DNA of 64,000 bases from Oscillospiraceae bacterium (GTDB taxonomy: Bacteria > Bacillota > Clostridia > Oscillospirales > CAG-272), in the NCBI GenBank assembly GCA_015064205.1, contig SVSR01000002.1, positions 1-64,000 on the forward strand, written 5' to 3'. Below the pieces are notes generated by a model, which saw only the letters and a program-made list of their open reading frames with translations, did no database searches and was not told the origin of the DNA. This document shows, in pieces, positions 38,249-39,819 of this stretch. The position numbers and the translations under genes were made by a program. Each line of letters opens with the position of its first letter. Within the stretch, counting starts at the first letter, position 1.

Positions 38249-38424
38249 AATTCTCTCCGCTATATCATATACGCATACACACTTGCATTTACTATAATAT
38301 GATACCATATTCCAGGTAACATTGTCAATAGCACATTGGTGATTTTCTAACAAATGGAGAGATTATTTTAATTATTTTTGCTCAAAAGTAACAAATGAAA
38401 AAAGTATTTCGGAAAATTGTGTGA

Positions 38425-38691
38425 TCAGGAATCAAAGCCCAATGCCTCACACATAAACGAAGCCGCAAAGCGCACGCCTTTTATAAAAGCTTCTTTTTGA
38501 GAAAGGTCGTTTAATTCTTGTATGCAATTCTCAAGCTTTGTGAGGGTATCCATTTCTTTTTCATTGAGAGTTTCTTTGAGCTTATCTTCGTTTCTGACGA
38601 TCAAACCCAAAAGCTCGCTTCTTTGCTCTTCGTTTTCATTGGTATCTGTCATATCGTACGAATACCACAATTCTTCAAGTAAATTTTTCAT
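38425..38691 (-). CDS. Small acidic protein (possibly DUF6809-like)
   Basis: MKNLLEELWYSYDMTDTNENEEQRSELLGLI...; own divergent promoter and RBS. Confidence 0.7.
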   Translation of the reverse strand: MKNLLEELWYSYDMTDTNENEEQRSELLGLIVRNEDKLKETLNEKEMDTLTKLENCIQELNDLSQKEAFIKGVRFAASFMCEALGFDS

Positions 38692-38708
38692 AATTTTTCC
38701 TCCTTAAC

Positions 38709-38724
38709 GCAACTTTTAAGTTGC
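38709..38724. promoter_or_regulatory. Operator 1 (gcaacttttaagttgc)
   Basis: 16-bp near-palindrome in 38425/38812 divergent promoter. Confidence 0.8.
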
Positions 38725-38738
38725 CAAACGCTATTATA

Positions 38739-38754
38739 GCATCTTTTAGGTTGC
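38739..38754. promoter_or_regulatory. Operator 2 (gcatcttttaggttgc)
   Basis: Near-palindrome inside the spacer of minus-strand promoter TTGACA-18-TATAAT. Confidence 0.8.
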
Positions 38755-38764
38755 ATTGTCAAGT

Positions 38765-38780
38765 GCATTCTATAAGATGC
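38765..38780. promoter_or_regulatory. Operator 3 (gcattctataagatgc)
   Basis: Near-palindrome directly upstream of plus-strand extended -10 TGGTATAAT (38782-38790). Confidence 0.8.
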
Positions 38781-38811
38781 ATGGTATAATGAACAAAAAG
38801 GAGGCTATAAA

Positions 38812-39036
38812 ATGAATTATTATCAAAGAATAAAAGATTTACGAGAAGATCACGATTATAAACAAACAGATATTGCAAAAATTTTAGGAACATCAAGACA
38901 ACAGGTAGGAAGATGGGAAAATGGTCTTCAAATGATGGGGGTTGATAAATACATCATTCTTGCCAAATTTTACAACGTATCTGCCGATTATCTGCTCGGT
39001 CTTATCGACACGCCCAGAAAACTAAGAGAAGAATAA
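38812..39036 (+). CDS. XRE-family HTH regulator
   Basis: IKDLREDHDYKQTDIAKILGTSRQQVGRWENGLQMMGVDKYIILAKFYNVSADYLLGL. Confidence 0.93.
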   Translation: MNYYQRIKDLREDHDYKQTDIAKILGTSRQQVGRWENGLQMMGVDKYIILAKFYNVSADYLLGLIDTPRKLREE

Positions 39037-39084
39037 AGACTTGGATTTATTCAAAGCCTTCTCCGTCCGAGAATGCTATTGCTC

Positions 39085-39114
39085 TTGACACTACGCGTGC
39101 AAAGATGATATACT
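39085..39114 (+). promoter_or_regulatory. SigA-type promoter of fic gene
   Basis: TTGACA, 18-nt spacer, TATACT. Confidence 0.75.
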
Positions 39115-39148
39115 ATGAATAATGAAACGTCAAAAAAGAGGATTCATT

Positions 39149-39811
39149 ATGAACTATGAAAACAAATATACGCTTACGCCCGAGCAAAGCCTTTTTCTTG
39201 CAAAAAAGAAATGGGATGAAAACGTATACTGCGGCATGAGAATGGAAAACCGCGCTGTCACCTTTCCGCAGACTCAGACCATATTAAACGGCGTAAACGT
39301 TCCAAACGTACACCTTGACGATATTCAGGCTATTCTGAATATGCGCGACGCGTGGCGCTATCTTATGAGCAGTATAAACGAGCCTTTGAACGTTGAGTAT
39401 ATGTGCACGCTGAACGAGTATATAGCACGCAATGAAGCTCTCGAATGGGGAAAGTTAAGAAACGGAGCTGTCGGCATCTCGGGAACAGATTATCAACCGC
39501 CTTTGCCCGAATATGATACTGTGTCATCAGAACTTGAAAGCATACTCTGTGCCGATACAACAGCCACAGAAAAAGCATTAAACGCTTTCGCTTGGGGCGC
39601 AAGAGGACAATTCTTTTGGGACGGCAATAAGCGGACGAGTCTGACGGTAGCCAACAAAATACTCGTCTCTGCCGGTGTCGGAATACTGACAATTACCGAC
39701 AAGCATATGGAACGATTCAACGGGTATTTACTTGATTTCTATAATACAGGTGAAGCAGAAGTGCTTAAACGGTTCTTGTATGATAACGCAATTCAGGGAC
39801 TCGCGCTATAA
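39149..39811 (+). CDS. Fic-domain protein with substituted catalytic motif
   Basis: Fic-like fold sequence with GQFFWDGNKRTSL at the Fic motif; start moved to ATG 39149 after agagga. Confidence 0.85.
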   Translation: MNYENKYTLTPEQSLFLAKKKWDENVYCGMRMENRAVTFPQTQTILNGVNVPNVHLDDIQAILNMRDAWRYLMSSINEPLNVEYMCTLNEYIARNEALEWGKLRNGAVGISGTDYQPPLPEYDTVSSELESILCADTTATEKALNAFAWGARGQFFWDGNKRTSLTVANKILVSAGVGILTITDKHMERFNGYLLDFYNTGEAEVLKRFLYDNAIQGLAL

Positions 39812-39819
39812 TAAAATGA

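Follow-up and report, generated by a model that had tools for sequence, protein, structure and literature searches.

Predicted operators of a 74-residue XRE protein between divergent DUF6809 and XRE genes of an Oscillospiraceae bacterium

Genes, palindromes and promoters at the locus

The window, i.e. the whole stretch of 64,000 nucleotides that was analyzed, contains a DUF6809 gene and a small XRE gene that diverge from a 120-bp gap (38692–38811), with ParA-like, Fic and glyA-like genes as the further neighbors of the locus. Three 16-bp near-palindromes are found in the gap. The features of the locus are as follows.

38332–39817, no strand: DUF6809-XRE-Fic segment of ca. 1.49 kb, which three congeners lack at this position; boundaries approximate
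38425–38691, minus strand: DUF6809 gene, 88 aa (PF20648, E 7.4e-15, 56 bits, cut-off 27, full profile length); predicted regulatory target
38709–38724, no strand: site 1, GCAACTTTTAAGTTGC, predicted operator; 7/7 outer pairs; shortly after the position where DUF6809 transcription is predicted to start
38733–38762, minus strand: DUF6809 promoter, TTGACA-18-TATAAT; 12/12 consensus; near-consensus in relatives, with a 17-bp spacer
38739–38754, no strand: site 2, GCATCTTTTAGGTTGC, predicted operator; fills the −35/−10 spacer of the DUF6809 promoter; position kept in relatives
38765–38780, no strand: site 3, GCATTCTATAAGATGC, predicted operator; covers the stretch between −35 and −10 in the weak XRE promoter; in most relatives located at about +25 relative to site 2
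38782–38790, plus strand: XRE extended −10, TGGTATAAT, one base after site 3; TGnTATAAT recurs in relatives
38812–39036, plus strand: XRE gene, 74 aa, Cro/C1-type HTH_3 (PF01381, E 4.8e-13, 49.4 bits, cut-off 23)

The XRE protein has no sensor domain, and its recognition helix, SRQQVGRW, corresponds to residues 28–35. Its top NCBIfam match was the RstR family (NF041951), with 44 bits over residues 1–66 against a curated cut-off of 80 bits, a score that does not place it in that family; weak matches to PezA were also observed. The structural model of the DUF6809 protein consists of three helices (mean pLDDT 87) and gave no match in the PDB with E up to 10. A profile search found no HTH family match for this protein, and a search of the available literature for DUF6809 returned no paper.

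The coordinates (38709, 38739 and 38765) and sequences reported for the three near-palindromes in an earlier note on this DNA were exact. Compared to GCAnCTTnTAAGnTGC, sites 1, 2 and 3 carry zero, one and two mismatches, respectively, and the 64 kb contain no other match with up to two mismatches. Symmetry is highest in site 1 and equal in sites 2 and 3, and the centers are 30 bp (sites 1–2) and 26 bp (sites 2–3) apart. When the 120-bp gap was shuffled 20,000 times with its dinucleotides preserved, three GCA-N10-TGC sites appeared once. No RNA family was found in the region by Rfam search, and no terminator was called at the palindromes.

Both divergent promoters are closely associated with these sites, as the earlier note had also proposed. 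The promoter of the 38425–38691 gene, with all 12 hexamer positions matching the consensus, is composed of TTGACA (38762–38757), an 18-bp spacer (38756–38739) and TATAAT (38738–38733), the −10 element being preceded by TG; 16 of the 18 spacer bases are occupied by site 2, and the length of the spacer is 1 bp off the family norm. On the plus strand a single base separates site 3 from the extended −10 (TGGTATAAT) of the XRE gene, for which no good −35 was seen in the window. Two other near-consensus promoters flank the locus, both without the operator: TTGACA-18-TATCAT for the ParA-like gene (38299–38328, minus strand) and TTGACA-18-TATACT for the Fic gene (39085–39114, plus strand).

Operators and recognition helices in relatives of the XRE protein

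Relatives of the XRE protein were searched in genome contigs, which yielded 80 loci, nearly all from gut Clostridia; none was confirmed in viral contigs. A DUF6809 gene divergently adjoins the XRE gene in 43 of the 80 loci, and in 28 of the 34 closest. The upstream regions of the relatives have a common scaffold, consisting of ATTATA, operator, TGTCAA, operator and TGnTATAAT, in which the position of the operator stays fixed while its sequence varies between loci. Among close relatives the operator reads GCACCTTTTAAGGTGC, and other relatives carry at the same place, in idealized form, AGTTCAAATGTGAACT, ACAGCTTATTAGCTGT, TACAACATAGGTGTTGTA, AGTAAATTTATTTACT, GCATTCATTTGAATGC and more. Sequence comparison of these regions shows that the positions of the sites relative to the two divergent promoters are fixed. 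About half of the XRE family has the same scaffold without DUF6809, and these loci appear to drive various other genes through it.

To relate operators to proteins, 47 loci with a clear site-2 palindrome (42 after duplicate removal) were chosen from 94, including 27 of the 43 DUF6809 loci. With the rest of the protein removed, recognition-helix distance predicted operator distance with a partial r of 0.74, a value that none of 5000 permutations reached (maximum 0.27). When 8-residue sliding windows were used, the signal peaked at residues 26–35 and the best windows all overlapped the recognition helix, as compared to 0.01 for the median window. At the level of single positions, residue 29 paired with operator base 2 in the half of site 2 away from the −10 (Gln with A in 27 of 28 cases, Arg with G in 13 of 13) and likewise at site 3 (Gln–A, 40/42; Arg–G, 24/24); the loci are not independent, so that p-values derived from counts are inflated. 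In a tree built without the recognition helix, the Arg29 label required 7 changes, at least 3 of them forced by well-supported branches. The Gln29–A pairing at the start of the recognition helix resembles that of Gln28 with A1 in the 434 repressor.

Taken together, the comparison strongly supports the view that the XRE protein encoded next to the palindromes (38812–39036) uses them as its operators. The predicted operators, one at each of the two divergent promoters, had been put forward in the earlier note, which held that a lack of conservation upstream of homologous loci would refute them; the layout proved to be conserved there, and the sequence of the sites covaries with the recognition helix. 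The protein would in this respect behave as a Cro/C1-type HTH_3 regulator, with palindromic sites at its own promoter that covary with its recognition helix. The family holds a natural record of operator and recognition helix changing together many times on an unchanged layout, and copies would therefore be expected to coexist without cross-talk. About ten natural repressor–operator specificities on one fixed promoter scaffold should aid work on the Cro/C1 recognition code, and the series offers candidate orthogonal repressors.

Not all three sites are equally general. Site 3 matched the site 2 of its own locus in 23 of 27 DUF6809 loci and in 17 of 20 others, as compared to 8–9% for control operators taken from other classes, and its distance from site 2 was exactly +25 bp in 32 of 42 loci. 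Site 1 was present in 19 of the 27 DUF6809 loci versus 5 of the 20 others (controls, 11% and 5%), at −31/−32 from site 2, i.e. near three helical turns. Since site 3 is found in most loci and site 1 mostly together with DUF6809, the conserved core consists of sites 2 and 3, 25 bp apart center to center, site 1 being an optional addition at the DUF6809 start. The 26- and 30-bp spacings of the window are each 1 bp off the family norm, site 2 being shifted by 1 bp. Of the 27 DUF6809 loci, 21 have the more symmetric palindrome at site 2 and 3 have it at site 3. The order of affinities suggested by the relatives might fail in the window, where site 1 is the best palindrome and no difference in symmetry separates sites 2 and 3.

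Matches to the operator elsewhere in the 1.65-Mb genome were sought by a mismatch pattern search, the scan with the 16-bp consensus that the earlier note had called for. The sole match with up to one mismatch outside of the locus, at C13:32909, carries one mismatch and falls within the leader preceding a metK-like gene. This match is probably coincidental and the predicted regulon therefore local; no convincing additional site was found to support a wider regulon in this genome.

Mobility of the segment and distribution of DUF6809

In three congeners the ParA-like and glyA-like genes are immediate neighbors, with a gap of about 150 bp in two genomes (G144 and G044). Absence of the DUF6809-XRE-Fic segment from this place indicates that it was probably acquired horizontally, a direction deduced from three congeners whose genomes are incomplete. 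A search for target-site duplications at the insertion, where identity to the congeners is roughly 70–84%, found none. Elsewhere, the neighbors of the DUF6809-XRE pair differ from locus to locus. Across the bacterial family, 82 of 146 genomes contain DUF6809, a single genome having as many as seven matches; TnpV, integrase and HTH genes occur in the vicinity of other copies. The genome studied here has a second DUF6809 gene (contig C21, 23120–23365), which contains an in-frame TAA and has no XRE gene that could be found beside it.

The Fic-family gene (39122–39811) encodes the motif GQFFWDGNKRTS, in which Gln occupies the position expected for the catalytic His. Two viral contigs, L167 and L168, carry homologues (79 and 70% identity, respectively) that retain this Gln and are preceded by a small gene whose product is ribbon-helix-helix-like by appearance.

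Regulation of the gene pair and comparison with known systems

It is highly probable that dimers of the 74-aa XRE protein bind all three palindromes, repressing DUF6809 strongly and their own gene more weakly; the gene pair would form a unit that stands alone and spreads horizontally. XRE bound to site 2 would obstruct RNA polymerase at the DUF6809 promoter, a very strong one; bound to site 1, it would pose an extra roadblock where the DUF6809 transcript begins. On site 3, usually the poorer one, it would repress its own weak extended −10 promoter, and the amount of repressor would thereby stay low and steady. DUF6809 would be off by default and expressed in bursts once the repressor was lost, diluted, inactivated by a signal or not yet made, e.g. 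when the unit has just reached a new cell. From the positions of the sites we infer repression, the order of affinities and the dynamics, and self-repression by XRE is read from the position of site 3. Graded control is plausible, site 3 being usually the poorer palindrome in DUF6809 loci. The regulatory element is real and of a familiar kind, its target family is new and uncharacterized, and the record of specificity switching is clear. For DUF6809, a family so far uncharacterized, this means that a regulator can be predicted and that the logic of its expression can be tested.

The best analogies among studied systems are ImmR of ICEBs1 and RcoLS20 of pLS20, XRE repressors by which mobile elements are kept silent from divergent promoters, and phage Phi11 with its three-operator region. 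In Phi11 of S. aureus, three homologous operators lie between divergent repressor genes (PMC3991615). As in the C1–Cro regions of phages 434, lambda and Phi11, a small HTH_3 domain protein is found here together with several similar palindromes between divergent promoters and, presumably, self-regulation. Unlike those regions, the present locus has one HTH protein, of 74 aa and without a C-terminal cooperativity or cleavage domain; an operator lies inside the promoter spacer, the third site is optional, and there is no recognizable prophage. In ICEBs1, the repressor gene and the regulated genes are divergent, with promoters about 130 bp apart (PMC4207663), and ImmR, which has six binding regions, is inactivated by the protease ImmA (PMC6540685, PMC4207663). 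The XRE protein shows sequence similarity to the ICEBs1 XRE structure 7t8i (E 5e-5), and the neighbors of the locus include no gene for an ImmA-type metalloprotease. RcoLS20 is an XRE master repressor with overlapping divergent promoters that regulates its own synthesis (PMC6540685, PMC4207663); in contrast to the situation here, it is a tetramer and acts by DNA looping between two multi-site operators, with a Rap antirepressor.

DUF6809 itself might bind XRE as an antirepressor or co-regulator, a burst of it inactivating the repressor in a positive loop. This reading, which we regard as unlikely, is favored by the frequent pairing of DUF6809 and XRE genes, by the action of RapLS20 on the XRE repressor RcoLS20 (PMC6540685), and by loci L090, L115 and L118, at which DUF6809 precedes 112-aa HTH_3-type proteins in operon order. 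However, most of the top-scoring DUF6809 genes have no XRE gene close by, and the half of the XRE family that uses the scaffold without DUF6809 indicates that XRE does not need it. In the three loci with 112-aa proteins both genes lie on the same strand, and two of these loci are possibly near-copies.

A broader proposal, to which we would give a similarly low probability, extends repression by XRE to a minimal self-contained mobile switch resembling immunity: DUF6809 would act on the regulation of the host or of competing elements, or on XRE, bursts would occur in a repressor-free cell, and paralogues would diversify their operators against cross-immunity, like phage immunity groups.

Somewhat less likely still is a bistable switch similar to lambda OR, in which XRE and a second regulator compete at three cooperative sites, or XRE, bound at site 2, activates its own promoter, to give two stable states. 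The earlier note had pointed to such a three-site layout. What stands of that claim is the presence of three similar operators between divergent promoters, together with the near three-turn spacing of sites 1 and 2 in relatives, which could allow same-face contact. By contrast, the core comprises two sites, site 1 being absent in many relatives, so that a third site is no general feature of the family; ca. 2.4 turns separate sites 2 and 3, which therefore lie on roughly opposite faces; and no second divergent DNA-binding regulator equivalent to Cro was found, the divergent product being DUF6809, with its three-helix model and no HTH match. Autorepression by itself gives no bistability, for which a feedback would be required; no sign of one was seen here. 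Lambda-like and bistable control are therefore beyond the evidence.

XRE antitoxins are common, and the weak PezA matches and the downstream Fic gene would fit a toxin–antitoxin system, with XRE as the antitoxin of the Fic protein or of DUF6809. This is very improbable: the conserved pairing of antitoxin and toxin that characterizes type II systems was not observed among the 80 XRE relatives, for which gene clustering found no Fic cluster common to any of them; the Fic gene has its own promoter-like site at 39085, its motif has Gln in place of the catalytic His, and its homologues in viral contigs lie behind a different small gene; and DUF6809 is divergent rather than in operon order. The Fic gene is best explained as separate cargo, not part of the DUF6809-XRE unit. 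Finally, that the palindromes are due to chance, or are RNA hairpins or terminators, is hardly credible, because, although palindromes can form hairpins and site 1 lies in the DUF6809 leader, the shuffle test, the Rfam and terminator results and the covariation of site sequence with the XRE recognition helix all speak for protein sites.

Two further loci show variations on the layout considered here for repression by XRE. An XRE relative with the same operators (L015:436–726) diverges from another XRE gene, a true two-repressor arrangement. In the genome of the window itself, a second 74-aa XRE gene (L166:347–571, contig C36) lies next to a gene for a predicted membrane protein and has a similar layout with a different repeat, the divergent gene being preceded by TTGACA-17-TATAAT with a TATCCC..GGTA repeat in the spacer.
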